64,000 bases of DNA from Olivibacter sp. SDN3. GTDB taxonomy: Bacteria > Bacteroidota > Bacteroidia > Sphingobacteriales > Sphingobacteriaceae. Shown here piece after piece: positions 31,750-42,956 of the stretch. The notes under the pieces are model-generated. The model worked only from the letters and a program-made list of their open reading frames with translations. It did no database searches and had not been told where the DNA came from. Position 1 is the first letter of the stretch. Each line of letters begins with the position of its first letter. Made by a program: the position numbers and the translations under genes. Location: assembly GCF_014334135.1 (NCBI RefSeq), contig NZ_CP060497.1:558001-622000 (forward strand), in the 5' to 3' direction.

Positions 31750-32007
31750 AATCTATAAGTTTAAATACTTATACAAAGGAACCACAAGCCAGTGACAACC
31801 GTATGTCAGTACCATTTATTTATTATAAAAGAAATTAGAATGGCAAAAAAACGGGCAAATTTAATCCTTAAAAAACGTTAATAATTGCTTTTGCAGAAGA
31901 TAAAGTTTCCCCAACCGCAAAAAGCAAATGTATTTAATAGTGATCAATATTCGCTTTTATATGAATGGCAATTTACCTAAGTTTGTTATATACATTTTTA
32001 TACTTTG

Positions 32008-33180
32008 ATGAATTACACTGCAATTATCGCGGAAGCCGCCAAATGGGTGGGCGACTTTATGGAAAAGCAAAACGATTCCAAATTGTGTTTCCATGACGGT
32101 GTTCACACTTTCCAAGTAGTAGAGGCGGCAAAAAAAATCTCGACCTATTATCAGCTAGATGAAAAAGCATATTTCATTGTAATAATAGCGGCTTATTTTC
32201 ACGACCTTGGTTATTATACGGGCCCGGCCGAGGACCATGAGGTTCGTAGCGCTCAGCTGGCAACGCGTTTTCTCCAGGATCACATGGTGTCGCAGGACGT
32301 TATTGCGGCTGTTCAACAATGCATTAAAGCTACCCGTATGCCACAAAGACCCAGCAACTTACTTGAACAAATTGTATGCGACGCAGACCTATTCCATTTA
32401 GGTAGCAACGATTTTACAAAACGTAATAGGCTCATGAGGAAAGAGGCAGAATCTTGTAAAAATGAACGTATCGATAAGGAAACATGGCAAAAAAACACCA
32501 TAGCCTTAATGGAGAGACACCACTACCACACCGATTACGGCAAACAGATCTTGGCACCCAAAAAGCAGGAAAACCTTCGTCTTATTAAAGAAAAAAACAC
32601 GCTAGTTAAGGAAAAAAACAATTTGGACAGCAGCAATAAAAAGAAAAACAACCGCCCGGACCGAGGTATAGAAACCATGTTTAGGGTTACTTCGACCAAC
32701 AATCAGCGACTAAGCGATATGGCCGACAATAAAGCAAACATACTGATTACAGTAAACTCTATCATCTTATCGGTTATTATAGCGCTGCTCCTTCGGAAAT
32801 TAGACGATAATGAGCACCTGACCATCCCAACCTTTGTTTTACTCGCAGCAAGCCTTACGACAATGGTTTATGCCATATTAGCCACTAGACCCGCTATTCC
32901 AAATGGTGTTTATGCCCCTAAAGATGTAAAAGAAAATAAAGTAAACTTGCTGTTCTTCGGAAATTTTCACCGGATGCCACTCGAAAACTACAACCAAGGG
33001 ATGAAAGATGTGATGGAAGACAGGGATCTGCTTTATGGCACACTCATTAAAGATGTATATTCCCAAGGTGTTGTTTTAGGCAGAAAGTATAGACTCTTAC
33101 GTTTGGCTTACAACATCTTTATGTACGGCTTAATTGTATCCGTTCTATCTTTCATCATTGTCATCATATACTTTTCTTAA
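32008..33180 (+). CDS. HD phosphohydrolase domain fused to a Pycsar-effector-type transmembrane domain
   Basis: 390-residue membrane protein. Residues 25-185 form an HD domain with H33, H65-D66 and D127 as metal ligands (GVH, YFHDLGYY, CDADLF), expected to act on nucleotides or cyclic nucleotides. After a charged Lys/Asn-rich linker (about 190-218), residues 220-390 match the Pycsar effector family (formerly DUF5706): the hallmark NNQRLSDMADNKANILITVN is followed by membrane segments at about 245-263, 272-292 and 370-390. No cyclase gene is adjacent. The gene sits 15 bases before ppk1, so they are probably co-transcribed. The ATG at 32008 is preferred to a TTG three bases upstream. Confidence 0.85.
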   Translation: MNYTAIIAEAAKWVGDFMEKQNDSKLCFHDGVHTFQVVEAAKKISTYYQLDEKAYFIVIIAAYFHDLGYYTGPAEDHEVRSAQLATRFLQDHMVSQDVIAAVQQCIKATRMPQRPSNLLEQIVCDADLFHLGSNDFTKRNRLMRKEAESCKNERIDKETWQKNTIALMERHHYHTDYGKQILAPKKQENLRLIKEKNTLVKEKNNLDSSNKKKNNRPDRGIETMFRVTSTNNQRLSDMADNKANILITVNSIILSVIIALLLRKLDDNEHLTIPTFVLLAASLTTMVYAILATRPAIPNGVYAPKDVKENKVNLLFFGNFHRMPLENYNQGMKDVMEDRDLLYGTLIKDVYSQGVVLGRKYRLLRLAYNIFMYGLIVSVLSFIIVIIYFS

Positions 33181-33195
33181 ACATCAGCGAGCGTC

Positions 33196-35241
33196 ATGAA
33201 AAATCGCTTTTTTAGTAGAGACTTAAGTTGGCTTACATTTAACGATCGCATATTAGATGAAGCGACGTATGCACGCACCCCTTTGAAAGAAAAAATGAAA
33301 TTCTTAGCGATATACTCTTCTAATTTAGACGAGTTTTATCGCGTTAGGATACCAGTGTTAATGGCGCTGAAAAAGATAAACAAAAATGAAGCAATAGCCG
33401 AAAATATTATAAAAAAAGGCGAGTTCAAAGCTGTAAAACAGACCATCGTACAACAGCAGGAACGTTTCGGCCAAATACTTAGCAGTCAAATCCTTCCGCT
33501 ACTTCATAAGGAAGATGTACACTTGGTTTATAACGAGCCTATCCCACTAACTATCCTGGAAAAAACGCGTTATTATTTTTTCTGTACACTTGCTGGATAT
33601 CTCGAGATTATTTACCCCAAAAAGCAACGTTTTTTCCCTCGTAACAATCAACTATATTTGGCCATCTTTTTTACAGATCAAAGCGATGAGCAGCTCGCTC
33701 TAGTCAATATTCCTTCAAATATCGTTTCCAGGTTTCTAAAAGTTGATTTTAATGGAACTTCTTATATATTGTTTATTGATGACATCATTAAACAATACCT
33801 TCAGGTTTTCTTTCCGGAAAAGGAAATTATTGGAGTCTATTCTTTTAAAGTGACACGGGATGCCGAATTGGATCTGCAAGATGAGTACGAGGGAGATATT
33901 GCGGAAAAAATTGAACAACAGCTCAATCAACGTGACTTCGGACTGGCTACCCGTTTACTATATCAACCAGATTTGCCCGAAACATACCTAGCTGCACTTG
34001 TACAAGTTTTTACGTTAAAAAAAGCAAACAAGGTGGCTGGTGGCTACTACCATAATTTAAAAGACTTTTTTGATTTTCCGATATATAATAGTGCCTGGGA
34101 GTATAAGGCAGCTCCTCCAATCGTGTCTTGTTTAAAAAACGAAGCGGCATCTGTATTCGATTCGTTAGACAGAAGGGATTTATTAATAAATACCCCATAT
34201 GAATCGTACGACACCGTTCTTCGATTTTTTAACGAAGCAGCAATAGATCCTTATGTAGAAGATATCTATACCACCATGTACCGGGTAGCTCCCGAATCAA
34301 GAATTGCACGTGCATTAATAAGTGCCGCCAAAAACGCTAAAAAAGTAACGGTGTTCGTAGAGTTGAAAGCACGTTTCGATGAATCAAACAATATCAAATG
34401 GGCAAAACAAATGAAGGAGGCAGGTGTGCAGATCATTTTCAGCATACCAAAACTTAAAGTCCATGCAAAAACAACTTTAGTAAAAAGGCGGATCTCTGAT
34501 AAAGTTCAACATTATGGCCTATTCGCCACCGGTAACTTAAATGAAAATACGGCAAAAACATACACTGATCATATCTTATTAACGGCTGGTAGGGAAATGA
34601 CAGCTGATCTGCAAAAGCTTTTTTTGTTCCTCGCTGAAAGAAAGCATCCCGCTACGGGCGACTACATTTTATTTAAACAGCTTTTAGTAGCCCAATTTAA
34701 CCTGCTGCCCTCTTTTATTAACTTGATAGATCGGGAAATCGAACATGCACAACAGGGCAAAAAGGCATCCATCATATTAAAAATGAACAACTTGGAAGAA
34801 CAGAGGCTTATAGACAAACTTTACGAAGCAAGCGAAAAGGGCGTACAAATAACCCTTATCATACGCGGTATCTGCAGGTTAAGGCCAGGGTTAGCAAAGG
34901 CAAACACGCCTATTAACGTTATAAGAATCGTAGGCAGATACCTCGAACATGGCCGAGTCTTCATTTTTGACAATAATGACAATCCTAAAATCTATTTAGG
35001 ATCATCCGACTGGATGAACAGAAACATTTACAGACGAATAGAGGTATGTTTCCCTATCCACGACGTGGAATTAAAAAACAGGCTGTGTAAAATCATACAG
35101 CTCCAGCTACAGGATGATGTGGCGGCCGTCAACTTAGATCACTGTTTGAATAACGTAGAAAAACCTTCGAAGAATGGCATACACGCTCAAGAAGACATTT
35201 ACCGATACCTCAAGACGTCTGTCCATCCGATTAATTTATAA
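33196..35241 (+). CDS. ppk1: Polyphosphate kinase 1
   Basis: 681-residue kinase that polymerises the gamma-phosphate of ATP into polyphosphate. The N-terminal FSRDLSWLTFNDRILDEA and FLAIYSSNLDEFYRVR are PPK1 signatures. The autophosphorylated histidine is H423 in LKVHAKTT, and the second active-site histidine is H585 in YLEHGRVF, followed by YLGSSDWMNRN. The usual motif IKxTLYR reads IYTTMYR, a small deviation. The order of domains (N, head, C1, C2) is complete. It follows the HD-Pycsar gene by 15 bases and precedes a propeller lipoprotein by 21 bases, consistent with one operon. Confidence 0.95.
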   Translation: MKNRFFSRDLSWLTFNDRILDEATYARTPLKEKMKFLAIYSSNLDEFYRVRIPVLMALKKINKNEAIAENIIKKGEFKAVKQTIVQQQERFGQILSSQILPLLHKEDVHLVYNEPIPLTILEKTRYYFFCTLAGYLEIIYPKKQRFFPRNNQLYLAIFFTDQSDEQLALVNIPSNIVSRFLKVDFNGTSYILFIDDIIKQYLQVFFPEKEIIGVYSFKVTRDAELDLQDEYEGDIAEKIEQQLNQRDFGLATRLLYQPDLPETYLAALVQVFTLKKANKVAGGYYHNLKDFFDFPIYNSAWEYKAAPPIVSCLKNEAASVFDSLDRRDLLINTPYESYDTVLRFFNEAAIDPYVEDIYTTMYRVAPESRIARALISAAKNAKKVTVFVELKARFDESNNIKWAKQMKEAGVQIIFSIPKLKVHAKTTLVKRRISDKVQHYGLFATGNLNENTAKTYTDHILLTAGREMTADLQKLFLFLAERKHPATGDYILFKQLLVAQFNLLPSFINLIDREIEHAQQGKKASIILKMNNLEEQRLIDKLYEASEKGVQITLIIRGICRLRPGLAKANTPINVIRIVGRYLEHGRVFIFDNNDNPKIYLGSSDWMNRNIYRRIEVCFPIHDVELKNRLCKIIQLQLQDDVAAVNLDHCLNNVEKPSKNGIHAQEDIYRYLKTSVHPINL

Positions 35242-35262: not shown

Positions 35263-36111
35263 ATGAAATTATTCATATCGATCTTCACCACTTTTCTCTC
35301 ATTTGCAAGCTGCGCGCAACCCGCTAAGCAAGACTACAGCAGCCCGAATGGGTACGACCTGGAACGGCCGGAAAAATTCACGCTACCTCATATCTTACAG
35401 GAAATCTCTGGTATTGCATTCCATCAAGGCCAGCCCGATACGATATATGCACAACAAGACGAAGATGGGAAGATTTTTCGTTTTAGACCGGGTGATAAGA
35501 AAATTCTGAACACTAAATTTGGCAAAAAAGGTGATTACGAAGATATAGCCATCTACAATAGCAGTGTTGTGATGCTCCGCAGCGACGGCACACTGTATAC
35601 CTTTCCGTTAAAGTCTATCAATGGCAAAGAAATAACCGACACCAAAGAATGGAAAAACCTGCTTCCTAAGGGAGAGTATGAAAGTTTAGCAGCACATATG
35701 GGGAGTTTATTTATATTGTGCAAAAAATGTAAAGCAGATAAAAAAACTGATCAAACCAGTGGTTACGTCTTTCAGCTCTCAGACAATGGTGCGATAAAAG
35801 CTAATGGCACATTCCACATCCAAGAGCAGGAGATAGAAAAAAAAGCTGATTTAAAGGGAAAACGTTTTAGGCCATCGGCTATGACCAAGAATAACAGAAC
35901 AAACGAATGGTACATCTTATCTTCGATTAACAAGATGCTGGTTGTAACAGATGAGACATGGAAAGTAAAAGCAGTTTATCCTTTAAATCCAAAAACATTT
36001 AATCAGCCAGAGGGCATGAGTTTTGACCGGGATCATAACTTATATATCAGCAATGAAGGTGGAGGTAAAAGTCGTGCCGCAACCCTGTTGAAATTTAAAT
36101 ATCTGCAATAA
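35263..36111 (+). CDS. SdiA-regulated-like beta-propeller lipoprotein
   Basis: 282 residues. The signal peptide ends in a lipobox-like FASCAQP (Cys17), so it is probably lipid-anchored. The body shows propeller repeats beginning with LPHILQEISGIAFHQGQPDT and ending with NQPEGMSFDRDHNLYISNEG. This is the pattern of the SdiA-regulated/esterase-like phytase propellers, which include calcium-dependent phosphatases and sugar-lactone-binding proteins. A phosphatase role would suit its place between ppk1 and a metallophosphoesterase, but no catalytic residues could be assigned with confidence. The spacing of 21 bases to ppk1 and 10 to the next gene supports one operon. Confidence 0.75.
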   Translation: MKLFISIFTTFLSFASCAQPAKQDYSSPNGYDLERPEKFTLPHILQEISGIAFHQGQPDTIYAQQDEDGKIFRFRPGDKKILNTKFGKKGDYEDIAIYNSSVVMLRSDGTLYTFPLKSINGKEITDTKEWKNLLPKGEYESLAAHMGSLFILCKKCKADKKTDQTSGYVFQLSDNGAIKANGTFHIQEQEIEKKADLKGKRFRPSAMTKNNRTNEWYILSSINKMLVVTDETWKVKAVYPLNPKTFNQPEGMSFDRDHNLYISNEGGGKSRAATLLKFKYLQ

Positions 36112-36121
36112 CTGAAATCAG

Positions 36122-39100
36122 ATGAGTTGCTTAAAAACCACCCTATTAAGAACCCTAGTTTTTATACTGGTGTTGCCCGGCATCCGTGGCCTAAGGGCTC
36201 AGGATTCGATCGCTCATCGCGTGATTTTTGTAGGAGATGCCGGAGAGATCAACCACCAACAGGAAACCATTATACCAATGGCGGCCGAGTTAAGCATACC
36301 CAATAAAACGACGGTATTGTTTCTTGGCGACAATATTTATCCACGAGGGATGGGGCTCGAAGGTGCACCGGAAGAAACAGACACACAAGATATCTTACGG
36401 TCGCAATATGAGCCAATGCGTGCAAAAAACATCCCGGTGTATTTTATCCCTGGCAATCACGATTGGGATCGCATGGGAAAAAAAGGGCTTGCAAAAGTAA
36501 TCGCCCAAGGCAAATTCCTAGAAACCCAACAAGATTCTCTATTAAAGCTTATTCCTCCCAATGGTTGCCCTGACCCTGTTGAAATTCCGCTTACAGATGA
36601 CCTGGTAATAATTGCATACGACAGTGAATGGTGGCTATTCCCTCACGAAAAGCAAAACACCGCTATCGAATGCGACTGTGAGACTGAAAAAGACGTGTTG
36701 GAAAAAATGGAAGAACTACGCTATAATAACCGCGATAAAACCATATTATTGGCTTCTCATCATCCGTTCGTCTCCTATGGAGTACACGGTGGCTATTACT
36801 CCTGGCAAGATCACCTTTTCCCTTTTACCGTGTTAAATAACAAACTGTTCATCCCTCTTCCGGGCTTAGGCTCCTTATACCCGCTTCTGCGGTCAACCGT
36901 ATTCCTCAACCCTGAAGATATGCAGCATCCCGCGTATAAAAAATTGCGCGAAGAGGTAACGGATGTATTCGAGCAATTTCCGAATATTATTTATGTTGCG
37001 GGGCATGAACACGGTTTGCAATTAAATAAACAAGGAGATATTCTACAGGTGGTGAGTGGTGCAGGGGCCAAACACACGTATACGAAAAAAGGGAAAAACA
37101 CCCTTTTTGCGGCATCAATGCAGGGTTTCGTGGTCGTTGACCAGATGTTAGATAAGCGTGTACGAATTACTTATTACACGTATGCCAATCACTCCATTAA
37201 AAAATCTTTTTCCTATGTTAAACCATATGTTGAGCAGGAGCAACAGCTCGAACCACTGGAAGGCGGCAACCTAACAGCAGACAGCATAATTACACAGGCA
37301 AATCCACGTTACAATAAAGTTGGATCGTTCCATCGCAAACTTTTCGGCGAAAATTATCGCAAAGAATGGGCTGCCGACACCAAGCTTCCAATCATTAAAA
37401 TATCCGAAATACACGGTGGTTTAAAACCCTTAAAACGTGGTGGCGGGATGCAATCTGTATCTTTAAGACTCGAAGACTCTACCGGCAAACAGTGGGTCAT
37501 AAGAAGCGTAAATAAAAATTCCGAAAATTTACTGCCAGAAGAACTTCGACATACTTTTGCGGAAGACTTTCTAGATGATGCGAACAGTGCCCAACACCCC
37601 TATTCCGCATTGATGGTTCCGCCCATTGCTCATGCCGTAAACGTTCCTCATGCAAACCCTATTATCGGCATTATTGCTCCAGACACCGCATTAGGTGTAT
37701 ATAATAAGGTTTTTGCCAACACCATGTGCCTGCTGGAAGAGCGCGAGCCTTTGGGCGACTCAGACAATACGATTAAGATGCTTAAAAAAGTAAACAATGA
37801 CAACGACGACACCTATAAAGCAAAAACATTCTTAAGAGCCCGATTAGTAGATCTATTGATAGGTGACTGGGATAGGCATGAGGATCAGTGGCGCTGGCGA
37901 GATGTAAGTAATGATGGAGATAAAGACTATTTGGTAGTGCCCAGAGATCGGGATCAGGTATTAAGGCTAACGGAAGGCTTTTTCCCGAAAATAGCCTCCA
38001 AATCCTGGGTCTTGCCCACCCTACAGGGATTTAACAGTCAAATAAAAAACATCCACTACTCTTTATTTAAATCCGACTTCCTCAACGCTCATCCTAAAGC
38101 GCAGTTCAGCTACGATGAATGGATGGAGATTGTTGATAGTTTTGTGTCGGATATTACCGACAGCGTTTTATTAGAAAGTGTAAAAAGACTGCCGATTTCA
38201 AGCTATCAAATCAGGCATGAAGAATTATTCGACCAACTAAAACAGCGAAGGGATGCCATTCCTTCGGCAATGGCAAAACATTATTACTTCATCAATAATA
38301 TTGTTGACATTAAATTGAGCAACAAGCATGAACAGGTACGAGTTGAAAGCACCGAAGATAAGGCTCTTCGTGTGATTGTCCGCAAAATAAATAAAAATGG
38401 AGAAGTTAAACGTAAGTTAATGGATAAAACCTACTTACCATCGCTCACAAAAGAAGTGAGGATTTACCTGGGTAGCGGCAACGACAGCGTTTATATAGCT
38501 AATAAAGATGCCGATATCAAACTTAGAGTAGTAGGAGCGGGAGGAGATAAAGATTATAACATTCGGGAGGCAAAGCGTAACATACACCTTTACGACCCTG
38601 GTAAATATGCCACCTTTACCCAAGGCACTGATAAACTAAAAAAACATCTGGCAAACGATAGTGCAAATACTTCCTTTGTGCCCGTTAACCTATATAATGT
38701 GTGGCTGCCGCTGATAACAGCTGGTTATAATGCGGATGACGGCATGCTGCTGGGTGGCGGGTTCAAATACACACATCAAAGAGGATTCCGTAAGACTCCG
38801 TTTACAAACACCCAACAGGTGTTATTCTCAGGAGCATTCGCAACTGGAGCATTCAAATTAAGGTATACCGGTCATTGGAAGAACCTTCTTGGGAAAGCCG
38901 ATTTCATTATACATGCTAATGTTTTTGCTCCAAATAATACGCAGAACTTCTTTGGTCTAGGTAACGCATCTGTTTATGATCAAGAAAACTATAGTATAAG
39001 ACATTATAGGGCCCGGTTTAGCTTATATGAGCTTCACCCATCGCTTCAATGGTCGTTAAATGACAATACTGTTTTCAGTATCGGGCCGACATTGCAATTA

Positions 39101-39754
39101 TACTACTACGACCCCAGTGACAATGAAGGCCGTTTTATTAATAATAGTGATTTATTGCATAGCTACGACAGTTTAACGATAGATAGGACTAAAAGCTTTA
39201 GCGGTTTAAGGACCCATTTTTACAAAGACAGTAGAAATAACAAGGTTTTAACTACACAGGGAGGATTTTTGGATGTTGAACTGTTAGGTACATATGGTCT
39301 CAACCGTTATTCCAGATCATTTTTACAGGCCAAAGCGACGATAGCGCTCTATGGGAACATAGCAAATGAGGCGATTGTATTAGCTAACCGGATGGGCGGG
39401 GGTACGACCATAGGAAAAACCGCCTTTTACCAATCGTTATTTTTAGGAGGACATGGTAATTTATGGGGTTTTAGGCAATATCGTTTTGCCGGGGAGCACT
39501 TATTTTTTAATAACTTTGAAGCTAGAATTAAAGTAGCTGAAATAGGCAGTTACATTATTCCAGGCCAGCTTGGTTTAATAGGTTTCTATGATATTGGAAA
39601 AGTATGGGCTTCTGGACTCAACGATAAAAGGATGCATCAAGGAGTTGGCGGAGGAGTGTATTATTCTCCAGCAAAGATTGCGCTTTTTCAACTTGTAGCC
39701 GGTCACTCCAATGAAGGATGGTATCCCTATATTTCACTAGGCGCACGTTTTTAA
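36122..39754 (+). CDS. Exported calcineurin-like phosphatase fused to an atypical-kinase-like region and an outer-membrane barrel
   Basis: 1210 residues. After a signal peptide (1-26), residues about 33-340 form a metallophosphoesterase with FVGDAG (D39), LGDN (D70, N71), GNHD (111-114), SHHPF and GHEHG. Residues about 420-640 hold a second conserved region. It has a Gly-rich loop (about 440), a following IRSVNK with Lys465, the sequence LIGDWDRHEDQW with D584-R-H, and VPRDRDQ with D609/D611. This spacing resembles the FAM20-type/PI3K-like kinase core, an inference. From about 860 the sequence alternates into beta-strands of a BamA/surface-antigen-type barrel and ends in Phe (ISLGARF), expected for an outer-membrane protein. 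It is followed after 5 bases by the GAF gene. Confidence 0.8.
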   Translation: MSCLKTTLLRTLVFILVLPGIRGLRAQDSIAHRVIFVGDAGEINHQQETIIPMAAELSIPNKTTVLFLGDNIYPRGMGLEGAPEETDTQDILRSQYEPMRAKNIPVYFIPGNHDWDRMGKKGLAKVIAQGKFLETQQDSLLKLIPPNGCPDPVEIPLTDDLVIIAYDSEWWLFPHEKQNTAIECDCETEKDVLEKMEELRYNNRDKTILLASHHPFVSYGVHGGYYSWQDHLFPFTVLNNKLFIPLPGLGSLYPLLRSTVFLNPEDMQHPAYKKLREEVTDVFEQFPNIIYVAGHEHGLQLNKQGDILQVVSGAGAKHTYTKKGKNTLFAASMQGFVVVDQMLDKRVRITYYTYANHSIKKSFSYVKPYVEQEQQLEPLEGGNLTADSIITQANPRYNKVGSFHRKLFGENYRKEWAADTKLPIIKISEIHGGLKPLKRGGGMQSVSLRLEDSTGKQWVIRSVNKNSENLLPEELRHTFAEDFLDDANSAQHPYSALMVPPIAHAVNVPHANPIIGIIAPDTALGVYNKVFANTMCLLEEREPLGDSDNTIKMLKKVNNDNDDTYKAKTFLRARLVDLLIGDWDRHEDQWRWRDVSNDGDKDYLVVPRDRDQVLRLTEGFFPKIASKSWVLPTLQGFNSQIKNIHYSLFKSDFLNAHPKAQFSYDEWMEIVDSFVSDITDSVLLESVKRLPISSYQIRHEELFDQLKQRRDAIPSAMAKHYYFINNIVDIKLSNKHEQVRVESTEDKALRVIVRKINKNGEVKRKLMDKTYLPSLTKEVRIYLGSGNDSVYIANKDADIKLRVVGAGGDKDYNIREAKRNIHLYDPGKYATFTQGTDKLKKHLANDSANTSFVPVNLYNVWLPLITAGYNADDGMLLGGGFKYTHQRGFRKTPFTNTQQVLFSGAFATGAFKLRYTGHWKNLLGKADFIIHANVFAPNNTQNFFGLGNASVYDQENYSIRHYRARFSLYELHPSLQWSLNDNTVFSIGPTLQLYYYDPSDNEGRFINNSDLLHSYDSLTIDRTKSFSGLRTHFYKDSRNNKVLTTQGGFLDVELLGTYGLNRYSRSFLQAKATIALYGNIANEAIVLANRMGGGTTIGKTAFYQSLFLGGHGNLWGFRQYRFAGEHLFFNNFEARIKVAEIGSYIIPGQLGLIGFYDIGKVWASGLNDKRMHQGVGGGVYYSPAKIALFQLVAGHSNEGWYPYISLGARF

Positions 39755-39759
39755 AAAAA

Positions 39760-42105
39760 ATGAAAACACAATTATTCAATATAATCGAGCATCAGAAAAC
39801 CGCTGCTTTTGATAAGCTCCAGACAAACTTATCGTTTAATCATTTTATTAAACACTTAGAAAAACTGGTAAGTGAAGGCGAGCAGGGTAAACATGAACTC
39901 TTTCAGTTTGTGGTGGAAAGGTTTGTCGAGGCCAAAAAAAAGCATGGACCCATCCAGGAAACCAACCTTGCAGACTACCAGACAGAACTATATTACACCT
40001 ATAATTTACTGGTTCCAACACTTCATAATGAAAACCAGACCTTATGGGCACTAGCTTTGCCTTTAGGGAAAAAAATATTCTACGGAACTGACGCTTTTTA
40101 TAGCCTCTTAACCCAAAATTCCTGTGAAGATCAAATACGTCTGAAAGTTACCGGCAAAAATGATGACCATGAAAAAACCATCCTGCAGTCGATCTACGCA
40201 TTGATACTCGACAGGCTCTATCATATCCCGCTTTTTGAAAGTGATAGTATAGTGTGCGCTTATATCAATAATGATACCGGACTACCTCAATATTTTGCCA
40301 TAACGATTGATAACACTTTTGTAACCGTAAAAGCAAAAAACAAATTGCCTCCTCTCAATTATGCCGCACTAAGGCAGAATAAAATGCAGGTAGACTGGGG
40401 AATAATGCTGGAGATACTGCCTTTAAAGCATTTTGAATTCGAAGGTTTTTCTATCATTACCCTGTCTGATATTACCTTAGACCATGTTACGGAGAATATA
40501 AAGAATATCATTATTAATAGCTCCGACAATAATTTTGCTTCCAATTATGAGGTACTGCAGGAATCACTCAAAATTCTTATGGGTAATCCCCATATAAAAT
40601 TTGGTATATCTCCGCTTTTGCAAGTTAACGGAAAACCGCTCATAGATCACGCTTTTATGTATGGAAGTGTACTTTCCGATTTATTGCAAAGCAAAGAGGA
40701 CCTGCACAATCAAGAAAAAATCACGGAAGAATATCTTAAAAACCCACAAAATCTAGTTTATAATATTGGAGCAGAAATTGAGAACAGTGATTTCGAATTT
40801 CTTGGTGATCTTTCTGATTTAGGCATTACTTCGTATGTATGTATGCCTTTATTCTACAACAACAACGTCACAGGAATACTCGAAATATATACTGAAGACG
40901 GCCACACATTTGATAAAACCAGTATTGCTAAACTGAGGCGCACCTCTGCTTTACTTGCTCAACTTCTTTATGATCAGGCTAATTATTTCAATGCAAAAAT
41001 CGAGACAATAATTAAGGAAAAGTTCACGTCGCTGCAGCCCGCAGTACAATGGAAATTTAACGAAGTAGCCCTTGAATATCTCAGGAAAGTAAAACCTGAT
41101 CAGCCTAAGCCAATAATTGAAAACATTCAGTTTAAAGACGTATTTCCACTTTATGGTGCAGTTGATATCAGAAACTCCACCATTGAACGTAACAAAGCAC
41201 TTATTGCCGATTATCGATTACAGCTGAATTTCCTGTTAAAAGTATTAGCGGAAATAAAGCACATTTTTAGTTTAGCAATTATCGATGAAGTGAACTTTAA
41301 TTGTGTGCAATGGCTGGAAAGATTAGACATTACTCCCGTTGACAGTTTACAACTCAAGCTAAATGAATTTTTAGAAAAAGATGTACCGCTTGTTCTGGAT
41401 CATTTTAAAAGGGGTAATGCCGGCTTGACAACTCTTATAAATGATTATGAAAATGAAACGATTATTGAAACAGGGTTATTTCATAGCCATCGCCGATCTC
41501 TAGAAGCTTCCATGGCAACGATTAATACGGCTGTAAATGGCTATCTCGATTTACTTAATCTGGAGATTCAACAATCTTACCCTTGTTATTTTGAAAAGTT
41601 CCGGACGGATGGCGTAGAATACGATATTTATATCGGTCAATCCATCGCACCAGACAAGCCATTTAACTCCCTTTACGTAAAAAATGTGCGTTTATGGCAA
41701 CTCTCATCGATGGCTGCCATAGCAAAGATCACTAATAGTTTACTTACGCAAATGGAGACACCATTAGAAACAACACAACTTATTTTTGTGAATTCCAATG
41801 AAATTGATATCAGTTTTAGAGTGGACGAAAAAAGATTTGATGTTGAAGGTTCTTATAACATCAGATATCATATTATAAAAAAGAGGATCGACAAGATACA
41901 TATAAAAAATACAAATGAACGACTCACGCAACCGGGTAAGATAGCACTGGTTTATTATGACAACAAAGAAAAGGCAGCGTATTTAAATTACATTAGCTAC
42001 CTACAAAATAAACAGATATTGTTAACTGATTTAGAAGAGCTGGAATTGGAAGAACTGCAGGGCATCAGTGGCCTAAAAGCGATGCGTATAGGCGTAAAAT
42101 TCTAA
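39760..42105 (+). CDS. GAF-domain protein of the polyphosphate-kinase operon
   Basis: 781 residues, cytoplasmic, no signal peptide or membrane segment. A GAF-like region lies at about 300-430: the sequence ENSDFEFLGDLSDLGITSYV leads into CMPLFYNNNVTGILEIYTEDG, the usual GAF beta-core for ligand binding. No kinase, GGDEF, EAL or helix-turn-helix domain was recognised on either side. The flanking parts are long, mostly helical and unassigned. It starts 5 bases after the phosphatase-barrel gene (a longer frame from 39718 would overlap it). Its place suggests a sensory or regulatory partner of the upstream phosphate-related genes. Its stop overlaps by three bases the stop of the convergent PAP2 gene. 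Confidence 0.75.
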   Translation: MKTQLFNIIEHQKTAAFDKLQTNLSFNHFIKHLEKLVSEGEQGKHELFQFVVERFVEAKKKHGPIQETNLADYQTELYYTYNLLVPTLHNENQTLWALALPLGKKIFYGTDAFYSLLTQNSCEDQIRLKVTGKNDDHEKTILQSIYALILDRLYHIPLFESDSIVCAYINNDTGLPQYFAITIDNTFVTVKAKNKLPPLNYAALRQNKMQVDWGIMLEILPLKHFEFEGFSIITLSDITLDHVTENIKNIIINSSDNNFASNYEVLQESLKILMGNPHIKFGISPLLQVNGKPLIDHAFMYGSVLSDLLQSKEDLHNQEKITEEYLKNPQNLVYNIGAEIENSDFEFLGDLSDLGITSYVCMPLFYNNNVTGILEIYTEDGHTFDKTSIAKLRRTSALLAQLLYDQANYFNAKIETIIKEKFTSLQPAVQWKFNEVALEYLRKVKPDQPKPIIENIQFKDVFPLYGAVDIRNSTIERNKALIADYRLQLNFLLKVLAEIKHIFSLAIIDEVNFNCVQWLERLDITPVDSLQLKLNEFLEKDVPLVLDHFKRGNAGLTTLINDYENETIIETGLFHSHRRSLEASMATINTAVNGYLDLLNLEIQQSYPCYFEKFRTDGVEYDIYIGQSIAPDKPFNSLYVKNVRLWQLSSMAAIAKITNSLLTQMETPLETTQLIFVNSNEIDISFRVDEKRFDVEGSYNIRYHIIKKRIDKIHIKNTNERLTQPGKIALVYYDNKEKAAYLNYISYLQNKQILLTDLEELELEELQGISGLKAMRIGVKF

Positions 42106-42956
42106 AATCTACCTACAATACTTAGCCCCCCCAAAGTTGGGGTCATATTCCAGGAAATCTTATCTTTCCTCTTGAGTGGGTTATCATATTTATTCTTTTC
42201 CATACGTTGAATGATTGATTTTGTACAGAACCACGATATTGCTCCGCCAAACGCCATATCCGAAACCCAATGGGAATCTGAATACATACGGCTAACCAAT
42301 GTAACCCCTGCTGTGCTATAAAACAGTGCTTTTAACCACGGCTTTTCTACTCTATTCGCTAGTACAATTGCGCTTACAGCAGCAATTTGTATATGTCCTG
42401 AAGGAAACGAATGATAACCTGCTTCTGGAGAGAACGGATCAAAGCCCCATGGGCCGACTTCGGTAGCAGGTCTTGCCCTTCCTATAGCCGTTTTCATAAA
42501 GGTTTGTACGGCCCCACTGGTAAGGTAAGCTGTGGCCAGTATTAAGCCGGTTTCCCTCGCCCATTCGTTTTTGAATACCAAACCCGTAAGATAAAAACCT
42601 CCGGTCATAATAAAAGCAGCATAAGGTTTTCCATAATGAAACCCGGCTCGTTCGACAGCGTCCCAAGCACCTGAATTCCTATTTTGCCAGAAACTACGTA
42701 CAGGCTTGTCAGCCAGTGTCAGCAAAGCAGTTCCTGCGACCACTCCTCCCGCTTTCAGCCAGTCGTCGCTTTTCCACCTTACCGGTGAAATAACTGTATG
42801 TACTACCCCATCTGCAAAACGAATAGCATCATGTGTTACTTTTTTTTCTTCCTTTGCTAAAGAATCTGAAGAAAAAGAGGAGCAATATGCCTTTGGGGAA
42901 TTCCATAAGACAAACAAAATAATGATTAAAAGTAGCGGCCTTATTTTTAGTTCCAT
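42102..42956 (-). CDS. PAP2 family membrane-associated phosphatase
   Basis: 284 residues with an N-terminal signal or anchor (about 1-26) and several hydrophobic helices. All three PAP2 motifs are present: KTAIGRARP, SFPSGH and SRMYSDSHWVSD, the last two supplying the catalytic histidines. It would remove phosphate from a lipid phosphate such as phosphatidic acid or undecaprenyl diphosphate at the outer face of the inner membrane or in the periplasm. It converges on the GAF gene with overlapping stop codons (42102-42105). No terminator separates the two genes. Confidence 0.92.
   Translation of the reverse strand: MELKIRPLLLIIILFVLWNSPKAYCSSFSSDSLAKEEKKVTHDAIRFADGVVHTVISPVRWKSDDWLKAGGVVAGTALLTLADKPVRSFWQNRNSGAWDAVERAGFHYGKPYAAFIMTGGFYLTGLVFKNEWARETGLILATAYLTSGAVQTFMKTAIGRARPATEVGPWGFDPFSPEAGYHSFPSGHIQIAAVSAIVLANRVEKPWLKALFYSTAGVTLVSRMYSDSHWVSDMAFGGAISWFCTKSIIQRMEKNKYDNPLKRKDKISWNMTPTLGGLSIVGRF

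Follow-up and report, generated by a model that had tools for sequence, protein, structure and literature searches.

The window studied here, a stretch of 64,000 nucleotides from Olivibacter sp. SDN3 (contig NZ_CP060497.1, positions 558,001 to 622,000), carries at 36122..39754 on the forward strand a single unbroken open reading frame (ORF) that encodes a protein of 1210 residues. Modelling suggests that the middle domain of this protein represents an unnamed family of the protein-kinase-like superfamily, within the group around CtkA/HipA, CotH, PI4K-II and FAM20. This kinase-like family is tied to an outer-membrane barrel, with a phosphatase domain as an optional companion, and the label of FAM20-type kinase, which a preliminary description of this DNA had proposed, is too narrow. 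We consider it somewhat probable, on the models, that the protein is an outer-membrane-anchored, phosphate-handling enzyme with kinase-like and phosphatase domains, and plausible that one protein would both add and remove phosphate.

Domain organization

The chain opens with a hydrophobic stretch, probably an N-terminal export signal as read from the sequence (residues 1-26, 36122..36199), followed by a phosphatase domain of the purple-acid-phosphatase type (residues 28-373, 36203..37240), the kinase-like domain (residues 384-740, 37271..38341), a beta-rich linker (residues 741-859, 38342..38698) and an Omp85-type 16-strand barrel (residues 860-1210, 38699..39751), all on the forward strand. 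The ORF, a PF00149 match and the predicted barrel thereby confirm the layout put forward earlier, a continuous protein with phosphatase, middle region and a barrel ending in Phe. The Olivibacter genome (6.1 Mb, one contig) has a single copy of the gene. In the window protein, the middle domain reached no Pfam cut-off and gave no credible match; hits on this region to Mlo, DUF1598 and EnY2 in Pfam, and to HDAC6 and others in a PDB sequence search, were weak, scattered and off-fold, and we rejected them as chance.

Predicted fold of the middle domain

An AlphaFold2 model of residues 384-880, built with 57 sequences, has a predicted local distance difference test score (pLDDT) of 92.0 and a predicted template modelling score (pTM) of 0.91, and its predicted fold is two-lobed and protein-kinase-like. 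When the model was compared with the PDB by Foldseek, the first match was CtkA of H. pylori (E 1.9e-7, root-mean-square deviation (rmsd) 7.4, template modelling score 0.35 by query and 0.55 by target), followed by PI4K-IIalpha (2.1e-5), CAMK1D (1.1e-4), HipT (2.6e-4), Rio2 (3.9e-4) and Golgi casein kinase (1.5e-3). By VIA, the top match was PI4K-IIbeta (Z 14.5, rmsd 4.9, 257 residues aligned), then CtkA (Z 13.2, rmsd 5.1, 240 aligned) and CotH (Z 13.2, rmsd 4.2, 242 aligned), with mTOR (12.2), Vps34 (about 11), HipA (10.8), Fam20A (10.3) and Golgi casein kinase (10.2) lower down. The leading Z scores, with a spread of about 1.3, are nearly tied. Two outcomes had been named beforehand as fatal to a kinase reading, a fold without a kinase core and a lack of conservation of the Asp and Lys residues; neither was observed, and a kinase core is present in the predicted middle domain.

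The PI4K-IIbeta match raises the possibility of a kinase acting on an outer-membrane lipid or glycolipid instead of a protein, with phosphatases of the gene cluster reversing the reaction. This would be a special case overlapping with the enzyme favoured above, and we regard it as possible, though rather unlikely. It is consistent with the position of the domain next to a membrane barrel, with PAP2 genes nearby in the window and in four related loci (L145, L207, L208 and L216), and with a gene for an APP1-type phosphatidate phosphatase close to the barrel-less genes of another, L138. The near tie among PI4K-II, CtkA and CotH speaks against it, as do the first rank of CtkA in both Foldseek and sequence searches and the scarcity of PAP2, labelled in 2 of 80 loci (at the threshold used, with a hidden Markov model from 2 sequences). 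These 80 loci are the best of at least 584 places found in a scan of a genome collection, and they may lack records that lie very close to the Olivibacter genome. PI4K type II further differs in that PF00454 had no match in 198 Bacteroidota genomes, the window's genome included.

Sequence comparison with known kinases

A profile of 38 diverse member domains, hand-picked for diversity and including one (L219) chosen as the Fam20C match described below, was searched against 177,635 distinct PDB sequences. CtkA was the best match (E 0.019; next match 0.27). The alignment sets the segment DWDRHEDQW over NFDRHNGNW of CtkA and the PRDRD segment over the CtkA segment APIFDCG, placing D584 on the Asp of the CtkA DRH motif and D609 on its metal Asp. 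The individual sequence matches are weak alone, and the stronger point is that sequence and structure both name CtkA. CtkA (PDB 3akj, 3akk and 3akl) has been reported as a protein kinase, and its DRHxxxW and metal-Asp segments align with those of the family; it differs in being about 15% identical to the window domain, and members do not reach the cut-off of the HipA C-terminal family (PF07804; 3 of 38 matched, best E 0.19). CtkA is not known to combine an export signal with a barrel.

With hhalign, the alignment of 110 members scored 31.3 (E 0.0024) against CotH (PF08757, PDB 5jd9 and 5jda), whereas seven unrelated families scored 14.1-18.3, HipA 23.6 and the CotH alignment in reverse 19.6; 40 column shuffles averaged 14.8 and reached at most 23.6. 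D584 aligns with the WD motif, and D609 with the PWDxD motif, of CotH proteins from Bacteroidota. The D228Q and D251A variants of B. subtilis CotH are inactive (PMC7821199), and we infer that D228 and D251 belong to these same two motifs. The family differs from CotH in its lack of a CotH Pfam match (none at E 10 in 20 close or in 38 diverse members, and none in the Olivibacter genome), and in L207 and L208 CotH is a separate nearby gene.

The assignment to FAM20-type secreted kinases had been based on the order of Gly-rich loop, catalytic Lys, DRH and metal Asp. The order of Gly-rich loop, DRH and metal Asp and the kinase-like fold stand, and the family also resembles FAM20/Fam20C in its putative secretion and in a Z score of about 10; membership is not supported. 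A search of 198 Bacteroidota genomes with Fam20C (PF06702) gave one match, below cut-off (E 4.8e-4), within a 1272-residue member of the kinase-like barrel family, and hmmscan found Fam20C in the same member alone among the 38, again below cut-off (6.7e-4). The best PF06702 score was 20.4 bits against a cut-off of 26.8, and the window protein had no match at E 1. FAM20 structures rank below those of PI4K-II, CtkA and CotH. FAM20 proteins have conserved disulfide cysteines; in the family, the positions that at least 93% of the rows keep in the 110-row alignment described next include no Cys.

Conservation of the kinase-like active site

Conservation was counted in two alignments, one of 84 rows that includes the window and one of 110 rows below 80% identity from a wider set. 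Before filtering, the latter had 169 rows, with domain matches at or below 80 bits or of about 230 residues or fewer excluded; the most remote members (L143 and L144) lie outside the counts. All 84 rows keep G440, G441, G442, R461, D582, D584, R585, H586, D609 and D611, and 83 keep K465. The Gly-rich loop, GGG at 440-442 (37439..37447), lies between beta1 and beta2 in the DSSP assignment of the model and is nearly as constant in the 110-row set (G440 106/109, G441 107/109, G442 102/109). D486 (37577..37579), in helix 479-488 at what would be the place of alphaC, is kept in 109/110, and E539 (37736..37738), in a strand at the putative hinge, in 107/110. The catalytic-loop motif DWDRH (582-586; 37865..37879), which aligns with the CtkA DRH and the CotH WD motif, contains D584 as the probable catalytic Asp (D582 109/110, D584 105/110, R585 107/110, H586 104/110) and is followed by Q589 (105/110). 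The metal-Asp motif RDRD (608-611; 37943..37954), aligned with the metal-Asp segments of CtkA and CotH, keeps D609 in 108/110 and D611 in 106/110. Of the 110 rows, 13 deviate at one or more of 14 checked positions.

The Gly-rich loop, K465, LIGDWDRHEDQW (with D584) and VPRDRDQ (with D609) were found where the preliminary description had placed them, and because these positions are near-invariant across both alignments they are not chance resemblances. The catalytic Lys is another matter. K465 (37514..37516) had been taken for it and is indeed conserved (106/109), but R461 (37502..37504), conserved equally (106/109), sits inside the predicted strand beta3 (457-462), the usual place of the kinase Lys, whereas K465 lies three residues beyond the end of the strand. 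Judged from the model, the choice of K465 is perhaps wrong.

The phosphatase domain

Pfam Metallophos (PF00149) matches residues 33-229 (E 2.9e-9), and the five motifs of a calcineurin-like phosphatase with a complete metal site, as claimed earlier, are all present. Counted in 49 rows below 80% identity, they are GDAGE from residue 38 (36233..36247; D39 47/49); GDNIY from 69 (36326..36340; D70 47/49, and Y73, a Tyr that purple acid phosphatases carry here, 46/49); GNHD, in GNHDW from 111 (36452..36463; N112 47/49, H113 46/49); H213 and H214 in SHHPF from 212 (36758..36763; 49/49 and 48/49); and GHEH, in GHEHG from 294 (37001..37012; H295 49/49, H297 46/49). VIA aligned this part with human purple acid phosphatase (PAP, 2bq8; Z 28.6, rmsd 2.9, 267 residues, 22% identity), and phmmer found rat PAP (E 0.0076), with LGDNIY over LGDNFY and GHEHGLQ over GHDHNLQ. 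The likeness to the mammalian-type enzyme (TRAP), as seen in sequence and model, extends to the metal ligands and the Tyr after GDN; the difference is that here the phosphatase is part of a barrel protein.

The seven ligands (D39, D70, N112, H113, H214, H295 and H297) are all kept in 45 of the 49 rows. One row, L100, deviates at H214 alone, and three (L007, L056 and L070) have lost three to five of the seven with their kinase motifs intact. Because in these three the phosphatase has decayed and the kinase motifs have not, the kinase-like site appears to be constrained even where the phosphatase is not. This bears on the idea that the kinase-like domain is dead, or not a kinase at all, and serves as a scaffold whose role is to bind phosphate compounds and to gate the barrel or control the phosphatase. 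We judge this unlikely. The replacement of the beta3 Lys by R461 would suit it, as would the finding that 78 of 80 loci have domain and barrel on one chain and the existence of paralogues with Ser at D584 and of degenerate remote members; the separate decay of the phosphatase ligands would not, and the Gly loop, D584, R585, H586, D609 and D611, kept in 102-108 of 109-110 rows, would be needless in a scaffold.

The barrel and the side of the membrane

In the full-length model (residues 27-1210; pLDDT 85.6, pTM 0.70, poor stretches at 222-268 and 374-380), 16 long strands run from residue 860 on. VIA aligned the barrel to BamA/TamA with a Z of about 25 and the final residue is Phe, so that the C-terminal barrel ending in Phe is supported by prediction; the NCBIfam Omp85_fam match, at 61.9 bits, is below the cut-off of 200. 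Of 153 ORFs with both domains (a redundant set), 113 end in Phe and 26 in Tyr. The linker, at the position where other Omp85 proteins carry POTRA domains, consists in the model of strands and helical turns of 3-4 residues at most (DSSP), and no POTRA domain is seen there.

The barrel is presumably inserted in the outer membrane. Like PlpD and other Omp85 enzyme proteins, the window protein has its enzyme domains N-terminal to a 16-strand barrel; it differs in having a kinase-like domain and a phosphatase instead of a patatin, metalloprotease or WD40 domain, and in that the model shows no POTRA. The N-terminal patatin domain of PlpD has been located in the periplasm (PMC11116518), and by analogy the catalytic domains studied here are most likely periplasmic. 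A term search for phosphatase and kinase in the main text of a 2014 survey of ten Omp85 subfamilies (PMC4104836) found neither word, and our literature search, incomplete and without preprints, found no title or abstract opening that describes a kinase-like barrel family. New kinase families of Legionella, according to PMC9758233, mostly cluster apart from established ones.

Distribution and architectures of the family

In a sample confined to Bacteroidota, 112 of 296 genomes, from 62 of 140 genera, carry the middle domain. In a set of relatives, 34 of 60 genomes matched some part of the protein, many by the phosphatase alone. Of the 80 loci, the named relative that matches best is Olivibacter jilunii, with 72% across the middle domain. 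Relatives occur in 5 of 72,556 plasmid records, all below 60% identity. Phage origin was considered and dropped, as none of 32 pattern matches in viral contigs was related.

Phosphatase, kinase-like domain and barrel are fused in 37 of the 80 loci, kinase-like domain and barrel alone make up 41, and the kinase-like domain stands by itself in 2, one of which (L029) stops at a contig end while the other (L094) has a barrel in the next ORF in the same frame. The latter, at L094 7911-10496 in Pontibacter ramchanderi, has a stop between the two parts that could be a break or a true split. A functional link between the domains comes from the fusions together with loci in which they are adjacent separate genes. 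L139 and L140 encode kinase-like domain, phosphatase and barrel in three neighbouring genes that point the same way (for L139, phosphatase E 2.6e-8 and a separate barrel gene matching PF01103 with E 8.1e-13, 49 bits against a cut-off of 24), and in L145 a phosphatase gene directly precedes the gene for kinase-like domain plus barrel. Barrel-less kinase-like proteins have 426-433 residues in L131-L135 and 502-586 in L136-L138. On a quick tree of 107 rows, which omits three degenerate or partial ones (L141, L142 and L209_4952), the presence of the phosphatase takes 13 changes to explain, of which starred branches force at least 10.

These counts also weigh on a reading in which the protein is above all an outer-membrane phosphatase that scavenges inorganic phosphate (Pi), with the barrel importing the product and the kinase-like part secondary. 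The purple-acid-phosphatase site, intact in 45 of 49 rows, would agree with this, and so would the phosphate-related neighbours, among them the Porin_O_P genes close to the L207 and L208 relatives. A phosphatase that comes and goes over at least 10 changes on the tree, and is missing from the 41 loci with kinase-like domain and barrel only, would not; nor is there such a protein in the F. johnsoniae Pi-starvation table (PMC8115612). We hold scavenging to be quite improbable.

Several loci deserve mention on their own. Clusters of barrel-less, partly divergent kinase-like paralogues occur at L137 3936-7275 (two) and L138 3629-8648 (three), with one D584-to-Ser copy each. At L210 9703-11589, a separate 629-residue Omp85 protein (PF01103) lies beside two genes for kinase-like domain plus barrel. 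In a Chitinophagaceae metagenome-assembled genome (L045 2757-10478), several neighbouring genes and the phosphatase domain are frame-broken, probably by assembly errors.

Gene neighbourhood

Upstream of the gene and on the same strand lie genes for an HD domain plus PycTM membrane domain of the Pycsar effector type (32005..33180), polyphosphate kinase 1 (33196..35241), both assigned by Pfam, and an SdiA-regulated-type protein (35263..36111; E 8.6e-7) with a sub-cut-off phytase-like match and a signal-like N-terminus as judged by eye. The gaps between these four genes, the last being the one studied here, are 15, 21 and 10 bases. Downstream, a gene whose product has sub-cut-off GAF matches (39718..42105, forward strand) overlaps or abuts the 3' end, and a PAP2-type phosphatase (Pfam) is encoded on the reverse strand (42102..42956). 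Relatives of the HD-PycTM protein are labelled in 51 of 80 loci.

Among 30 loci with full flanks and all three domains, polyphosphate kinase 1 was found in 26, HD in 29, the SdiA type in 27 and the GAF type in 27; in 30 full-flank loci without the phosphatase, the numbers were 9, 12, 9 and 9. A polyphosphate kinase lies within 20 kb of the domain in 24 of 55 genomes, against 0.83 expected by a rough uniform estimate, a count that covers 55 of the 112 domain genomes and not all second copies of the kinase. The cases are not independent, since one family (f43) supplies 15 of the 24, 14 of these at 11.5-13.1 kb; the remaining 9 come from several families. Polyphosphate kinase 1 is often a neighbour but need not be one, and strict dependence on it was rejected, as at least 4 of the 112 domain genomes (G133, G160, G186 and G292) have no PP_kinase_C match.

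This neighbour suggests a far more speculative possibility, which we think very unlikely: one polypeptide would write and erase periplasmic phosphate marks using a donor other than ATP, for example polyphosphate from the polyphosphate kinase 1 of the cluster, and the beta3 Arg would be part of the adaptation. A non-ATP donor is invoked because ATP would be scarce in the periplasm. For a possible parallel, VTC polyphosphate polymerases beside CotH genes, a literature search found no description.

In L207 the relative is flanked by a polyphosphate kinase gene on one side and by SdiA-type, Porin_O_P, CotH and PAP2 genes on the opposite one; close to the relative in L208 are genes for Porin_O_P, CotH and PAP2. 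With the latter set (L207 8089-11049, L208 5167-8211), two kinase-like families share one neighbourhood. At L146 14498-19900, and in L011, polyphosphate kinase and the phosphatase-kinase-barrel protein lie in one open frame without a stop. A true fusion was discounted, as the phosphatase part opens with its own signal-like stretch inside the frame; from the sequence, this looks like two genes without an intervening stop. A locus labelled Williamsia (L057), by name an actinobacterium, also has the HD, polyphosphate kinase, SdiA-type and GAF-type neighbours and is probably a mislabelled metagenome-assembled genome.

Discussion

As far as the models can tell, the evidence supports a protein that is exported and carries a barrel, whose phosphatase site is intact and whose middle domain has a protein-kinase-like fold with conserved DRH and metal-Asp motifs. 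The enzyme that we favour would be fixed in the outer membrane by its Omp85-type barrel, with both catalytic domains N-terminal to the barrel and most likely in the periplasmic space. Its middle domain would phosphorylate a protein, lipid or glycan that is periplasmic or membrane-bound; D584 would act as the catalytic Asp and D609 would hold the metal. The purple-acid-phosphatase-type domain would strip phosphate from the same or related substrates. Computation supports the sequence, the predicted folds, the conservation, the separability of the phosphatase and the gene neighbourhood; insertion in the membrane, placement in the periplasm, catalysis and a substrate common to both domains are inferred.

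Several observations weigh against such an enzyme. Appreciable ATP is not known from the periplasm, and the Arg in beta3 in place of Lys leaves nucleotide binding in doubt. Two barrel-less paralogues (L137_3936 and L138_6891) carry Ser at D584, and three remote rows (L141, L142 and L209_4952) are degenerate. At the level of sequence, the CtkA match (E 0.019) is weak alone, a PDB search with the profile of the 20 close members gave no credible kinase match, and none of the 20 close and 38 diverse members scanned reaches a curated kinase-family cut-off. The hhalign probability for CotH is just 12%, and an earlier comparison with the close set scored CotH at 29.5 and an unrelated phosphatase control (22.5) above HipA (21.3). 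For the phosphatase part, Foldseek ranks first GAP50, which is an anchor protein from Plasmodium, and because the full-length pTM is 0.70 the modelled placement of the domains is unsure. Chains that lack the phosphatase outnumber every other form (41 of 80 loci), so that kinase and phosphatase need not share a substrate. Finally, the Pi-starvation table of PMC8115612 lists no outer-membrane PF00149 barrel protein for F. johnsoniae, a species that may lack the gene.

If active, the family would give the Gram-negative envelope a phosphorylation enzyme, one that over a third of the sampled Bacteroidota genomes (112/296) carry, while all 58 member domains scanned stay below the Pfam kinase cut-offs. 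The repeated gain or loss of the phosphatase offers a natural comparison of forms with and without the eraser. Envelope phosphorylation of proteins, lipids or glycans outside the cytoplasm, and the donor that it uses, would become testable, and the family suggests that Bacteroidota attach and remove phosphate outside the cytoplasm.

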